64,000 nt of DNA, taken from NCBI GenBank assembly GCA_019239825.1, contig JAFAZK010000030.1, positions 1 to 64,000 on the forward strand, given 5' to 3'. The notes beneath the pieces are model-generated. The model saw only the letters and a program-made list of their open reading frames with translations, was not told the DNA's origin and ran no database searches. The first letter of the stretch is position 1. Each line of letters starts with the position of its first letter. This document shows, one piece after another, positions 8,045-59,564 of the stretch. The DNA comes from Verrucomicrobiota bacterium. GTDB lineage: Bacteria > Verrucomicrobiota > Verrucomicrobiia > Chthoniobacterales > JAFAMB01. The position numbers were made by a program, and so were the translations under genes.

Positions 8045-8473
8045 GAGGAGATCAAAAGGAAGGAGCGAGGAGCCAGAATCCAGGAGTCAGGAGGCGTTGG
8101 GGTAGTTTGAGGTTCGCCTGGAGGGCAGGCCGCTTTGGACCGTGCCTTGGGATCTCCCGCTATTCTTTCTGGGGCGAGGAAGGCCGAGCAAGGTGTTAAA
8201 CAGGCGGCTCCCGGAAACGACCGCACGCCATGTTTTTCCCAGCGTACCGTTCAGAAATCTTTATCCGCTTGAGACGTCGTTAACCTAGTACGCGTTGAAA
8301 CGTTCGCGGGAGCCCTTGTTTAAGGCAATTTCCGGTCTTCCACGCGCCGAGACAAATATCACGGATTTTTGGGCACGGTCCAAAGCGGCCTGCCCTCCAG
8401 GCGAACCTCAAACTACCCCAGCGCCTCCTGACTCCTCGATTCTGGCTCCTGGCCCCTTGCCCTTGATCTCCTC
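8045..8473. repeat. Palindromic interspersed element, family 1 copy 2, with about 100-bp outer arms
   Basis: Arms 8045-8146 and 8372-8473 are reverse complements with few mismatches (for example ggagtcaggaggcgytggggtagtttgaggttcgcctggagggcaggccgctttggaccgtgcc); core homologous to 893-1150. Confidence 0.93.
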
Positions 8474-38898: not shown

Positions 38899-39003
38899 CG
38901 GCGAAGCCCCGTAATCTATCCCGCGCCAATCCGGTCGATTCTGGATTGGCGCGGACCCTGTGACCTTGAACTGATCGCTGCGTGAACCAATAAAGAAGAA
39001 AAA

Positions 39004-39225
39004 TCTCACGCAAAGACGCAAAGGCGCAAAGGTTAAAACCATTCAGGTAAGAGCGTTCCAAAAATTTTCGAAGCGGTAGTTCGGAGGTCGGTGATTGCAG
39101 GATTGCAGATAAAACGAACCCCCAATAAAGGCACTCGTTAAGAATGGTTACCTCCCTGATGTCCTCGTGCTTTGCGCGACATTTGCATGCGTCTTAACCT
39201 TTGCGCCTTTGCGTCTTTGCGTGAG
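39004..39225. repeat. Inverted repeat of ACGCAAAGACGCAAAGGCGCAAAG type
   Basis: ctcacgcaaagacgcaaaggcgcaaaggttaaaac (39004) / gtcttaacctttgcgcctttgcgtctttgcgtgag (39191). Confidence 0.95.
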
Positions 39226-39233
39226 ATTTTGGT

Positions 39234-40084: not shown

Positions 40085-40375
40085 TTGGTGGGGCGAGGCT
40101 CCCGAACAACCCAAAGTGTTAGCGAAGCGCTTGGCGTCGAACTAAGGACGCGTCATGCTAGGCCGCAAGACTCGCCGAGCCGCGACCCGGCGCACCATCA
40201 GAGGACACAATGCGTGAAGTCCCAGTAGCCGCCATCCGTTCCAAGTCCTACGATTACCAAGGCACATCCCCATCCCCCGGCTCGGCGATCTTTCGGCCCA
40301 ACAAAATCAAGCGACGGACACCGCGAATTGACTCCGGTAGAGGTTTCCGGCCTTATGGGAGCCTCGCCCCACCAA
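40085..40375. repeat. MITE-like TIR element, family 2 copy A
   Basis: ttggtggggcgaggctcccga ... tgggagcctcgccccaccaa; inner cgccgagccg ... cggctcggcg. Confidence 0.92.
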
Positions 40376-45081: not shown

Positions 45082-45096
45082 TCGGCGTTTGCGAAT

Positions 45097-45339
45097 GCCA
45101 CGAAGTGGCGAAACAGAACAGCCCAGGGCTTCAGCCCTGGGTTTGGTGATGGTGTGGGTGCGCCCTGAAAGGGCGTCCGAGCGAGAATCGCCTTTGCCAA
45201 TTGGTTCTGGCAATCCAGAATTTAAAGGTCGACCTAGCGCGTCCGGCCCGAATCACTCGGTCGCCCTTTCAGGGCGATCTTTTTTGGGGAGCTAACCCAG
45301 GGCTGAAGCCATGGGCCGTTCTGTGTAGCCACTTCGCGT
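45097..45339. repeat. Nested inverted-repeat element (CCCAGGGCTGAAGCCCTGGG type)
   Basis: Outer arms 45097-45144 / 45293-45339; inner cgccctgaaagggcgtccgag / ctcggtcgccctttcagggcg. Confidence 0.93.
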
Positions 45340-45414
45340 CATTCGCCCATTCGCCGTGTCGCGCCCCCTCGTTGCTTGCGCCAACCGCAGTTTGCTTGTT
45401 TGGTGGTGGTTCTT

Positions 45415-48740: not shown

Positions 48741-48767
48741 GGAGCTAGGAGCTAGAATCTAAGAGAC

Positions 48768-49055
48768 TTTGGTAGGGCGAGGCTCCCGAATGGCCCAAGG
48801 CTTTTAGCGAAGCTGCTGGCGTTGATGAATCCGAAATCGCGCTAGGCCAAAAAGGCGTGCCGAGCCGCGGGTCTGCCGTGTCGCAATGATCTTGGTTTCT
48901 TAAAAGTGATGCTGCATTGCCAATCACCGCGCCTCACCATGTACACGATATGCCGCGGCTCGGCGAGCGCATTGGCGTAGCAAAATTCCGGGTTTTAAGC
49001 TTGCCGGCGGCTTCGTCAAAATTAAAGCGCCATTCGGGAGCCTCGCCCTACCAAG
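48768..49055. repeat. MITE-like TIR element, family 2 copy B
   Basis: tttggtagggcgaggctcccgaatgg / ccattcgggagcctcgccctaccaag (25/26); inner gccgagccgcgg / ccgcggctcggc. Confidence 0.95.
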
Positions 49056-49056
49056 G

Positions 49057-50724
49057 TTGACGGCATCACGCCCCTCTCCATGTTGCCGCATTACCAGTCC
49101 ACGCCCTTCTTTTCATAAGCTCGACTTTGCCGCCCTGCTTCTGGTGCTAGCAGCGGTCCTCTGGGGGATCAAACAACGCGGCGGTTTGCCGGCTGTCCCG
49201 CTCCTCACACCGGATTCTTGGGGTTACCTGCATCCGGCGCTCTCTTGGCTAGGCGGCGCTGGGTTTCAGCAAACCGACGGACGGGCTTGGTTTTATCCGG
49301 CTATTGTCGCCCTAATATTGAAGGGCGGCGGCGATTTCTCGTGGATTGTTCGGGTCCAACAAATCCTGGGTTTGGCCAGCGCGCCGCTTCTCTGGTTCGG
49401 TCTACGGATCTGGTTATCGCTCTTCCCAAAGAGAACGCCGCTATGCCACGGCGTCGCTGTTTTCCTGGGAGCACTAACCGCCGCGATTTATTTATTGAAC
49501 ACCACACAGGTCCGCTTCGAAATGACTATCCAACCGGAAGGTGCGTTGGCGTTCTTCGTTCTGACCTATCTCTTTCTTGCGCTTGCTTACATCAGGATGC
49601 GTTGGGTTTCCCACAAGGACTGGCCCGCGATCGTTTTCGGCGCCGCCACCGTGCTCAGTTCCTATTGCGTTCTGCTTTTGAAACCAAGTTGGGGATTCGC
49701 GCTGGTCCCTAGTTTCCTTTTGCTTGTCGCGGGGATTTTTGGCGCTGGCTCGCGGTTGTTGCGCTGGATACCCGCCTTCGCCGCGGTCGTGATGACGGGT
49801 GCTCTCTTCACTTGTCCACATCTGCTCGGCTTTCGGCCGGACGCGGGTTCACGGACCTTCCTGCCTTTCACCCTGGTCTCGATACACGCCGCCCAGATTC
49901 TCCAAAACGCTGAAAAGCAACATTTGATCACTGAGGCCGATACGCCTTCGCCTGACCAGGAAGACCGGTTCTATCAAGAATTGAAGCAAGCCTGGATCGA
50001 GGCTCGGAAAGTCCCGCTTGGCTGTCCGACGCTCGGTTTTGCTCCTGACTACATCATGTATACGAAGGATTTTTTCAGAGGATTCGCCGCCGAGCAAAAG
50101 CTGACCGACTCCGAGTTGATCAGCCTTTGTTACACAACCTATTTCAAGACTTGGCTGGGTTCACCTGGAGCGATGCTGGCCAAGCTCGGCAAAGAAATGG
50201 GCGTCTTTCTATCTGCACCGAGCCGCGACTTCGCGGCGCATTCCGTGAGCAGAAAGCGAGCGTTGGATATTTCCGCCCGCTTCAGTCCTGCGCCCCAGGA
50301 GTTGCTGACGGCGGCTGAAGCAAAAGACTATCTACGCAATCAACCCATCTATCTGGCCTACCTCGCCAACCTGGCGAAAGTGTATCAAGAAGGTTGGAAG
50401 ATCGATTGTGTTAATTGGTTGCGTTACGTCGCGATTGTCCTGGCCAAACTCGCCTCGATCATCCAGGTCGCATTTTTTGTCTCTCTCATTCCGATTTTCT
50501 TCACCGGAAGGCTCTCTGATCTCCGTTTGCCGGCACTAGCGGCAATCATGGTCAGCACGGCAGTCTATGGAAACATGTTGACCGTTGGGGTTGTCCACAC
50601 CCTCGACCTGGACCGATATCGCACCGGCTATATGCCGGCGCTCCTCCTCACTCTGGTGATGATGACGACGGTTCTCTTCGCAGCCGCGGAGCGATGGAGG
50701 CGCATCTCGCGAGACCTAACATAG
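49057..50724 (+). CDS. Multi-pass membrane protein, glycosyltransferase-like hypothetical
   Basis: 555-aa ORF, many TM segments, extracytoplasmic TPDSWGYLHPAL motif region; TTG start abuts the repeat. Confidence 0.65.
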   Translation: MTASRPSPCCRITSPRPSFHKLDFAALLLVLAAVLWGIKQRGGLPAVPLLTPDSWGYLHPALSWLGGAGFQQTDGRAWFYPAIVALILKGGGDFSWIVRVQQILGLASAPLLWFGLRIWLSLFPKRTPLCHGVAVFLGALTAAIYLLNTTQVRFEMTIQPEGALAFFVLTYLFLALAYIRMRWVSHKDWPAIVFGAATVLSSYCVLLLKPSWGFALVPSFLLLVAGIFGAGSRLLRWIPAFAAVVMTGALFTCPHLLGFRPDAGSRTFLPFTLVSIHAAQILQNAEKQHLITEADTPSPDQEDRFYQELKQAWIEARKVPLGCPTLGFAPDYIMYTKDFFRGFAAEQKLTDSELISLCYTTYFKTWLGSPGAMLAKLGKEMGVFLSAPSRDFAAHSVSRKRALDISARFSPAPQELLTAAEAKDYLRNQPIYLAYLANLAKVYQEGWKIDCVNWLRYVAIVLAKLASIIQVAFFVSLIPIFFTGRLSDLRLPALAAIMVSTAVYGNMLTVGVVHTLDLDRYRTGYMPALLLTLVMMTTVLFAAAERWRRISRDLT

Positions 50725-54248: not shown

Positions 54249-55601
54249 TCATCGGTTCAGCAACCTGGCAAATAAACGGAGCCGAGCGTAGATAACGGCA
54301 TCGCGCACGGCGAGAGACAACGGTTCGCCCTTCTTTTCTACGAGCGGATTGGCCAGAACAAAAGTTACCGCAACCAGCACGGTCAACATCAAAAAGTAAA
54401 GACTGTACCGGTTCACATGAAATGGCCCCAACTGAAACTGGGCGTGCCCGACGGAATCCAGAAAAATCCCCCAGCAAATCGGCGCTAACCCTAAGCTCAC
54501 AGAGGTAAACACGGTAAATAGAGCAAAGAAATGGTTTCTACCCATCAGAGGCATCGTGTCCATGGCAATCCGCGTGTTAGCAATCCCAAACAAGCCACCA
54601 GCGACGCCTAGGATCAGGTAAATGAGCACTACCATCACCGCCGTCGTGTTTAACAGGCCGCTCGAGATCAGGAGCCAACAGATCACGGTCCAAAAATAAC
54701 AAACCAAGGCTATCCGCAGCATCGGCTTCGTCCCGGTCCGGTCCATGAGACCAGCCACCAACGGCACGGTAATCGCCGCTCCGACGAAAGCGAACATATT
54801 GCAGCCCAGAATCATACCGTCGCTGAACCCGCCGGCGTTTTGCAAAAAGCCGACGATGAACGCCCCTAAGCCGCCGATCACCCAGTTGTAGACGACCGTA
54901 AAAATCAGCAGTTTCGTGAAAGGAGGATATTTCAGCATCGCGCCCCAGGGTACTGGTTGGCTCGAGGTCCTGACCTGATCACCAACTTCGACGTCGGGAA
55001 CCAAGCGAATAAAAAACAAGCTCAACGTCGCCGCGCAGGCGCTAAGAAAAAACAGAAAGGAGAAATGCCCCGGTTTCCCACTGCTCCATAACACGACAGA
55101 CGAAAGCGCCAGCGCCAACAGTCCACCTATTTGGACATAAGTTTGATCTTTTCGAAGGAAATGCCCTCTTCGTTCCTCCGGAATTAAGGAGGTGAGCCAG
55201 GGCAACCACGCCCCAGTCGATATTCCGCGTAAGACATTGAAGATGAACAGGCCCATTAACATCAGGCTAATTTTCGTAGAGTTGTCGAACGCGGTTACCA
55301 ATGGCAACAGGGCAAAACTAAAGACGGTCAGTGTTCGCGAAAACCAGCCCAGCAGAACGAACTGCTTATAACCGATCTTCGGGATGAAGTAAGCCGTAGG
55401 TAATTGTAGGACGGTCAACAAAGGCGCCAAGGCGGCCACTATGCCGATCGTCGTCGAACTCGCCCCGAGCGACTTGGCGTACAAGACCATCGGGGTGCCT
55501 AACGTGATCTGAAAATTCAGCTGGTTATACAGGCTGAATTGATGCGCGTAGGCAGAGTCCCTTTTGACCTCTGAGGAAACCGTTAGTGCACCTTCTCGCA
55601 T
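54249..55601 (-). CDS. MFS transporter
   Basis: 12-TM-like ORF FQITLGTPMVLYAKSLGASSTTIGIVAALAPLLTVLQ. Confidence 0.88.
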   Translation of the reverse strand: MREGALTVSSEVKRDSAYAHQFSLYNQLNFQITLGTPMVLYAKSLGASSTTIGIVAALAPLLTVLQLPTAYFIPKIGYKQFVLLGWFSRTLTVFSFALLPLVTAFDNSTKISLMLMGLFIFNVLRGISTGAWLPWLTSLIPEERRGHFLRKDQTYVQIGGLLALALSSVVLWSSGKPGHFSFLFFLSACAATLSLFFIRLVPDVEVGDQVRTSSQPVPWGAMLKYPPFTKLLIFTVVYNWVIGGLGAFIVGFLQNAGGFSDGMILGCNMFAFVGAAITVPLVAGLMDRTGTKPMLRIALVCYFWTVICWLLISSGLLNTTAVMVVLIYLILGVAGGLFGIANTRIAMDTMPLMGRNHFFALFTVFTSVSLGLAPICWGIFLDSVGHAQFQLGPFHVNRYSLYFLMLTVLVAVTFVLANPLVEKKGEPLSLAVRDAVIYARLRLFARLLNR

Positions 55602-55860
55602 ATAATGATGACATCGCCGCGAGTCAGTTGGCTGTTTTTCAAGGCGCGAGCGACGAGCATATCTAAATCCGATACGTAAGGAGCGAGCGACGCCGAAAAA
55701 CAGCCAACTGGCCGCGGCCCGGAGGGTTGCGATGAAAATGGGCCGGCGGCCGCGTTGCTCGTCGGTTGCGTATCGATCCAGATATGCGCCCTCCTCGCGC
55801 CTTGCCGGCGGCCCATTTTGATCGCAACGATGTCACCACTATATGCGAGACGGTGCACTA
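55584..55860. repeat. Cruciform-like nested inverted repeat: outer stem closing two hairpins
   Basis: Outer 55584-55616 / 55828-55860 (30/33); hairpin 1 55625-55640 / 55695-55710 (16/16); hairpin 2 55726-55750 / 55804-55828 (about 23/25). Confidence 0.95.
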
Positions 55861-55863
55861 CAC

Positions 55864-57315
55864 TCATTCTCGAGTTTTCGGTTTCAAATGCGGAAAAAGA
55901 ATGACATCCCGAATCGACTCAGCGCCCGCCAAGAGCATTATAAGACGGTCGATCCCCAAGCCAAACCCGCCAGCCGGCGGCATCCCGTGCTCCAGCGCCA
56001 GCAAAAAGTCCTCGTCAATCTTTTGAGTCTCTTCGCCGGCCTGTTCAACCAATCTCTGTCGTTGTGTGATCGGATCATTCAATTCGGAATAGCCAGGTGA
56101 GAATTCTACCCCGTTGATGATCAGCTCATAGACGTCCACCAGACTGGGATCTGCGGGGTTTTGTTTCGCCAACGGTACCAATTCGGCCGGCAGATGGGTA
56201 ACGAACAACGGATCAATCGTCTTTTCTTCGACCAATTTCTCGAAGACCTGCTGAGTGATTTCGAATTCAACCATCGCGGGCGAGATTTCAACGCCTAGCT
56301 CCTGACAACGGCTTCGTTTTTGGTCAACGGTTAGTTCGAACCACTGCGGTTCAATTTCTCGGATCAAATCATGGTAACGCGCCCGACGCCAAGGACGTTG
56401 CAGCCGGATAGTTCGCCGAATATTTCCTTCCGAATCCGTGTGATCGATGGTCAACCCGCCGGTTGTCACCTCGGCCAGACGACAGATCAGATCTTCTACA
56501 AGCTCCGCTATCAGCTCGAAGTCCGCATACGCCCAGTAAGCTTCCAGCATGGTGAACTCCGGGTTGTGCCGGCGCGAGATCCCCTCATTCCGGAAGTTTC
56601 GGTTCAACTCAAATACCTTGGGAAATCCGCCGACCAAAAGTCGTTTCAGATAGAGCTCCGGCGCGATCCGCAAGAAGAGATCAACTCCCAGCGCTTTATG
56701 ATGAGTCTGAAACGGCTGAGCCGCGGCGCCGCCGGCTACCGTCTGCATCATCGGCGTTTCCACCTCGATAAAGCCACGGTCATAAAAGAATTGCCGGATC
56801 TCACGAAGCACCCGGCTCCGGATCAAGAATGTCCGCCGCGATTCCGGATTTGCGATCAGGTCGAGATAACGTTGGCGATACCGGATCTCGACATCGGTAA
56901 CTCCATGCCATTTGTCGGGCAACGGCCGGAGCGTCTTAGATAAGAGTCGAAACGACTCGGCGCGAACAGTCGGTTCACCGGTTTTCGTCACAAATGTTTC
57001 TCCGGTAACACCTAAAAAATCCCCGATATCCACCAGCCCGAACAGCTCGGCCTGTTCAGGGGGTAGCTCTTTGAGGTTCAAATACACCTGCATGCGGCCG
57101 GTCAGATCGCTCAGGTCTACGAACTGGCTCTTACCCATGTTCCGATGAGCCGTGATCCGGCCGGCCAGTGCCACTTTTCTCCCCTCGACGAATCCTTGCC
57201 GGATCTCTTCGACGGTTCCGGAGACATCAAACCGTCCCCCAAACGGTGACCAATTCTTTTCGATCAACTGTTGCAGTTTTTGGCGACGTACCGCCAAAAG
57301 CTCGTTCTCTTCCAT
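55864..57315 (-). CDS. lysS: Lysyl-tRNA synthetase, class II
   Basis: MEENELLAVRRQKLQQL ... FIEVETPMMQTVAGGAAAQPFQTHHKALGVDLFLRIAPELYLKRLLVGGFPKVFELNRNFRNEGISRRHNPEFTMLEAYWAY. Confidence 0.97.
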   Translation of the reverse strand: MEENELLAVRRQKLQQLIEKNWSPFGGRFDVSGTVEEIRQGFVEGRKVALAGRITAHRNMGKSQFVDLSDLTGRMQVYLNLKELPPEQAELFGLVDIGDFLGVTGETFVTKTGEPTVRAESFRLLSKTLRPLPDKWHGVTDVEIRYRQRYLDLIANPESRRTFLIRSRVLREIRQFFYDRGFIEVETPMMQTVAGGAAAQPFQTHHKALGVDLFLRIAPELYLKRLLVGGFPKVFELNRNFRNEGISRRHNPEFTMLEAYWAYADFELIAELVEDLICRLAEVTTGGLTIDHTDSEGNIRRTIRLQRPWRRARYHDLIREIEPQWFELTVDQKRSRCQELGVEISPAMVEFEITQQVFEKLVEEKTIDPLFVTHLPAELVPLAKQNPADPSLVDVYELIINGVEFSPGYSELNDPITQRQRLVEQAGEETQKIDEDFLLALEHGMPPAGGFGLGIDRLIMLLAGAESIRDVILFPHLKPKTRE

Positions 57316-57359
57316 CGCGCTTGACTTAAACCGCAATTGCGAACCGGACAACTCGGATT

Positions 57360-59348: not shown

Positions 59349-59564
59349 TTTGGTGGGGCGAGGCTCCCAAACGACCTTGAGGTAAGGCCGGAGCACCCGA
59401 TGCCATCTTGCCCAGTGACGTCCATAGGCCTAAACACGCGCCGAGCCGCGGCAGAGCGCTAAGTCACGGCTCGGCGCGTTTTCAAGCGTAGCAGTGTCTT
59501 ATCAACAGGATCATCGGTCACTCCGGTTCAATCATAGGGCCGTTCGGGAGCTCGCCCCACCAAA
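59349..59564. repeat. MITE-like TIR element, family 2 copy C
   Basis: tttggtggggcgaggctcccaaacg / cgttcgggagctcgccccaccaaa; inner aaacacgcgccgagccgcgg / cacggctcggcgcgttt. Confidence 0.92.

Follow-up and report, generated by a model that had tools for sequence, protein, structure and literature searches.

A palindrome of almost 280 bp lies between lysS and an MFS transporter gene in a Verrucomicrobiota bacterium which, judging by isolate names, probably lives in soil. What kind of sequence is it, and how did it come to separate these two genes? We addressed this question in a stretch of 64,000 nucleotides of the genome (the window) and in the genomes of related bacteria.

A nested palindrome at the lysS-MFS junction

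Both genes lie on the minus strand, the MFS transporter gene (PF07690) at 54249-55601 and lysS, encoding lysyl-tRNA synthetase (PF00152, PF01336), at 55864-57351, with some uncertainty on the lysS start codon. The palindrome occupies 55584-55860. Its outer arms (55584-55616 and 55828-55860) match at 30 of 33 positions and, when taken as 39-nt arms, are 87% complementary. They enclose two hairpins, both described here on the plus strand. Hairpin 1 (55617-55717) has a perfect 16-bp stem (55625-55640/55695-55710) that is extended at its base, and hairpin 2 (55726-55828) has a 25-bp stem (55726-55750/55804-55828) that is 92% complementary. The linker between them, CCCGGAGGG (55718-55726, plus strand), forms a mini-hairpin of the type CCCnnnGGG that is kept in our alignment of copies and in distant members. 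The loops of hairpin 1 (55641-55694) and hairpin 2 (55751-55803) carry a single motif of about 53 nt in opposite orientation, with 43 of 56 aligned positions identical and an inverted alignment score of 25, against -5.6 ± 3.9 for shuffled loops. The sequence is therefore built from two similar units placed face to face.

This geometry had been recognized in a preliminary description made from the sequence alone, and it was borne out. The predicted RNA fold of the palindrome reaches -166 kcal/mol, compared to -98 ± 5 kcal/mol in shuffled sequences (z = -13.3, 0/200 shuffles), and an inverted repeat of 30/33 within 300 bp never occurred in simulated 64-kb sequences, where the best case was 23/33 (n = 3, first-order Markov). 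A scan for promoters and terminators returned no promoter-like site and a single, weak terminator-like site.

Copies and empty sites identify a mobile element

The preliminary description had reported no second copy of the palindrome. This is true inside the window, while the 6.67 Mb draft genome of the host holds 11 substantial copies and many fragments. Among 97 related genomes, 20 have BLAST matches to the element; the genus and family relatives that carry it have 7-19 matches, and most of them hold roughly 5-20 copies. All full copies share one design of about 272 bp, in which an outer stem surrounds a hairpin, the CCCnnnGGG linker and a second hairpin. The outer arms constitute terminal inverted repeats, which measure roughly 25-35 bp in those full copies that were examined, and the length between the terminal GTG and CAC is 271-274 bp in 34 of 58 copies, most being close to 272 bp. 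In the window, the element proper (GTG...CAC) covers 273 bp (55586-55858). Its left terminal inverted repeat, GTGCACCTTCTCGCATATAATGATGACATCG (55586-55616, plus strand), is of the same type as those of copies L004, L078 and L079, and the right one (55828-55858) lies on the minus strand. A TA dinucleotide is found immediately outside each end (55584-55585 and 55859-55860).

The same locus in a sister species (genome G002, contig L059) lacks the element, as the preliminary description had proposed to check. There, lysS and the MFS gene are directly joined (...GAGAATGAGCATAGCGG...) with a single TA, whereas the window reads ...GAGAATGAGTG-TA-element-TA-ACGG... on the minus strand. We searched the genus for empty sites using the joined flanks of 18 other copies. 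Clean empty sites, with one TA in place of two, were obtained for four of these, L011, L031, L077 and L086, making five with the copy in the window (L001); those of L005 and L009 are consistent with the same pattern, and L002/L035, L076, L004/L078 and L006/L079 are ambiguous. The palindrome in the window is one copy of a small mobile element that inserted into a TA between two genes. A unique and non-mobile palindrome, produced by chance or peculiar to this locus, would agree with the lack of a second copy in the window, but it can be dismissed given the many copies in the same genome and in relatives and the empty sites. The preliminary description had reasoned that a palindrome with neither copies nor covariation would be a unique, non-conserved one; both copies and covariation (see below) were found.

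Across the copies, TA adjoins 73 of 96 ends and CTA 55 of 96, with TA intact on both sides in only 26 of 48 copies. Insertion points fall within open reading frames in 5 of 45 cases, compared to an ORF coverage of 60% in the surroundings. The element has no coding capacity, since about 272 bp could not accommodate a transposase gene and the 94-aa reading frame that crosses the copy in the window begins outside of it. Internally deleted derivatives also occur, the shortest being a 44-bp palindrome made of the terminal repeats only (L176, G001 contig 453, 200-243), evidently either the remnant of an internal deletion or a minimal element. Searches of plasmid, phage and viral-contig collections gave no match to the element. 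With terminal inverted repeats, a TA duplication supported by empty sites, multiple copies and no coding capacity, the element has the anatomy of a MITE. We consider it highly likely that it is a non-autonomous, MITE-like element of about 272 bp which targets TA/CTAG and whose conserved double-hairpin core is bounded by terminal inverted repeats that can be exchanged.

The insertion reshaped the start of the MFS gene. In the sister species the MFS start codon overlaps the lysS stop codon (ATGA), an arrangement that is intact and in frame in L059 and whose counterpart in the window is at 55864-55867 (minus strand). The insertion of 273 bp plus TA split this overlap and moved the original MFS start into the 94-aa frame, so that the MFS frame in the ORF list now begins at an ATG within the left arm of the element (55599-55601, minus strand), and translational coupling between lysS and the MFS gene was presumably lost. 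This accounts for an earlier remark that the MFS protein begins with MREGAL while the other arm encodes MRDGAL on the opposite strand. The remark is correct and trivial, as both arms of the palindrome contain an ATG and the right terminal repeat mirrors the one that holds the present start codon.

The palindrome is a property of the DNA

The preliminary description had also likened this geometry to a structured RNA or the end of a hairpin transposon more than to a simple MITE, and had suggested an analysis of covariation. When 38 copies are aligned, both partners vary in 61 of 78 pairs. This exceeds 500 of 500 shuffles, a control that ignores relatedness, and all slid controls, which retain it. 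This strong two-sided covariation, the very stable fold and the frequent intergenic position of the copies are what would be expected of a structured non-coding or cis-regulatory RNA with a selected fold, for instance a riboregulator inside an operon. Other observations do not fit. An RNA read from one strand would retain G·U pairs and avoid A·C, but the non-Watson-Crick transition mismatches in the alignment are about equally divided between G·T (85 cells) and A·C (74 cells). In three pairs of orthologous insertions, changed positions left the pair intact 16 times and broke it 15 times, and not a single compensatory double change was seen. The only hits of an Rfam search were two weak ones that fell short of the gathering score, and neither overlaps the element, which is also missing at this locus in the sister species. 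Taken together, the even split of mismatches and the lack of compensation between orthologues argue that palindromy is a DNA-level property and make a conserved RNA very improbable. The balance of kept and broken pairs with no double change further indicates that palindromy is present when the element is copied and decays afterwards. This argument is compatible with folding of individual transcripts, which may occur. Of the earlier contrast with a simple MITE, most therefore falls, the RNA part in particular; what stands is that the element, although a MITE in its anatomy, is more elaborate than a simple one. More generally, strong covariation is no proof of an RNA when the sequence is a dispersed repeat, and comparing G·T with A·C mismatches separates the two cases.

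Terminal repeats are exchanged around a conserved core

In 39 pairs of copies within the family, the cores are at least 88% identical while the ends are less than 60% identical. The copy in the window has ends of the type GTGCACCGTCTCGCATAT..., and L050, L033, L072 and L083, among others, have other types around nearly the same core. In a single-contig genome (G171), the 223-bp core of L261 is 99% identical to that of L269/L272, with both ends replaced. The terminal repeats thus behave as replaceable modules, whereas core identity remains at 88-99%. Two elements, L032 and L070, have mixed arms, one from each of two types, which is the intermediate expected if one arm is captured first.

We propose a model in which arm identity is restored by foldback (hairpin) templating. 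A copy that captured one new arm could then convert the other and hence change helper, with elements bearing two different arms as the intermediates of arm conversion. In its fullest form, the double-hairpin core would be a selfish module as old as the phylum that persists by changing its terminal repeats, through arm capture, foldback copying and switching between unrelated transposases, its architecture being kept because the core takes part in copying. We put this fullest form forward tentatively, as a scenario that we find possible while leaning against it.

Candidate helper transposases

An element of this kind would be moved by a transposase acting in trans and cutting at the terminal repeats, most likely a DDE enzyme of the IS5 family (NCBIfam IS5_3, PF13340). 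We propose such a helper on the basis of the TA/CTAG targets and of one similar insertion sequence end. In G408, the ends of an IS5_3 element are flanked by CTAG and read CTAGGATCTGTTCACGAATT (from an alignment of three copies). They have the 11 nt CTGTTCACGAA in common with the end of element L003, CTAGTGTCCTGTTCACGAAATAA; the likeness to IS5, which consists of this one 11-nt match and the target, suggests an IS5-type helper. In G408 (L290 and six other places), the 868-bp IS5_3-type insertion sequence is present in seven copies, with two reading frames and, where checked, in CTAG sites.

No gene flanked by the terminal repeats of the element was recovered through PF13358, PF01609, PF01797 or PF13340 in the genomes searched, most of which are drafts. 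Since repeats often remain unassembled, the helper may be missing from these assemblies. By family, PF13340 (IS5 DUF4096) is absent from the host genome (G000) and from most element-bearing genomes tested, and gave no matching ends; PF01609 (DDE_Tnp_1) hits have no matching ends; PF13358 (IS630) is absent from the genus; and the PF01797 (Y1/RAYT) genes examined are bordered by other repeats. Autonomous copies sought behind single terminal repeats turned out to be internally deleted derivatives or stretches with no partner repeat, in which no transposase was recognized.

Two other types of enzyme deserve consideration. Duplication of TA is a signature of the IS630/Tc1-mariner family, and a transposase of that family could mobilize the same element. 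The four genomes of the genus have no PF13358 hit, however, the three hits in the sister genus have no matching ends, and the preference for CTA/TAG around the TA does not fit either, so that we regard this origin as quite unlikely. Alternatively, a single-stranded DNA element could be moved by a hairpin-recognizing HUH transposase (Y1, RAYT/TIRYT), the doubled TA then consisting of an invariant target and an element end that matches it, and not being a true duplication. The palindrome is rich in hairpins, Y1 transposases occur in most element-bearing genomes tested, and some end types contain GGGGACAG, which fits the GGGGWSAS motif reported for the terminal inverted repeats of tyrosine transposases (PMC3733652). 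Yet none of the 27 HUH-gene loci examined is flanked by ends of the element, other repeats being found there, and G171 and G042 hold several copies with no Y1 hit. The symmetry of the two ends and the TA at either side also suit a DDE transposon better, which leaves an HUH enzyme unlikely and the IS5-type helper as our preferred proposal.

Distribution and comparison with known systems

To look beyond the family, we built a covariance model (R1) from hairpin 2 and the linker, which has matches in 29 of 388 sampled Verrucomicrobiota genomes. Many of the matched loci display the full architecture with a different sequence, and others have no clear outer arms; the weakest matches (e.g. L215, L218, L219, L226) belong to the latter and were excluded as evidence. 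Several lineages of the phylum share this architecture, their arms covarying in the manner of DNA palindromes. One genome (G309) carries dozens of copies, many of them 93-98% identical to the query, indicating recent activity.

We found no description of this element in the literature searched, the coverage of which is incomplete. ERIC elements also target TA and, to our knowledge, have no autonomous partner. ERIC and other enterobacterial RU elements (127-168 bp) are non-coding imperfect palindromes, mostly intergenic, and spread over a large clade (PMC10969869, PMC2759123). Compared by description, our element resembles them in all of these respects, but it is about twice as long, has two nested hairpins with loops that are inverted versions of one another, exchanges its ends between subfamilies and belongs to another phylum. 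With IS5-family insertion sequences (IS5_3/IS427-like) and their MITEs it shares CTAG-flanked ends and the 11 nt mentioned above; we found no insertion sequence whose full terminal repeat coincides with that of an element, and the element holds no transposase remnant. REPINs and other palindromes associated with RAYTs or TIRYTs are likewise dispersed and common in the same genomes, but the RAYT genes here are bordered by other repeat families, and REPs differ from the element by its doubled TA and long outer arms. AAV-type terminal hairpins are T-shaped palindromes with two inner palindromes. The analogy is one of shape only, an outer stem around two smaller palindromes, as our element is not a replication end and lies TA-flanked inside a bacterial chromosome.

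The usual view of bacterial MITEs is that each derives from one insertion sequence and does not last long. In the present case, a nested-palindrome design of near-fixed length is found repeatedly across a phylum with changing ends, even between 99% identical cores in one genome. Two questions thereby become testable: what allows a non-autonomous element to survive its helper, and by what means a long palindrome maintains the match between its arms.

Other repeats in the window and in related genomes

The window contains several other repeats. A palindromic repeat at 45091-45346 contains GCCCAGGGCTTTAGCCCTGGG units. Y1 (RAYT-type) transposase genes in G000 contig 207 (L244) and in G002 (L245) are bordered by the same units, and the repeat therefore looks like a REPIN with a resident helper. 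Related palindromic repeats at 850-1187 and 8045-8473 are 83% identical over 260 bp and carry GGCTCCC/GGGAGCC motifs. In G002, comparable motifs are present around a RAYT-type gene (L259), for which BLAST comparison was not significant. In G003 (contig 517, L257), inverted repeats of 23 nt, GGGTCACGTCTTAATAAGCAACA, flank a 280-aa ORF for an HUH transposase; together they may constitute a TIR-associated tyrosine transposase element. Finally, inverted repeats at 48766-49057 and 59349-59564 in the window have a common TTTGGTAGGGCGAGGCTCCC-like end, with partial copies near 40085-40375, and another at 39000-39230 has 40-nt arms that are 98% complementary (CTCACGCAAAGACGCAAAGGCGCAAAGG).
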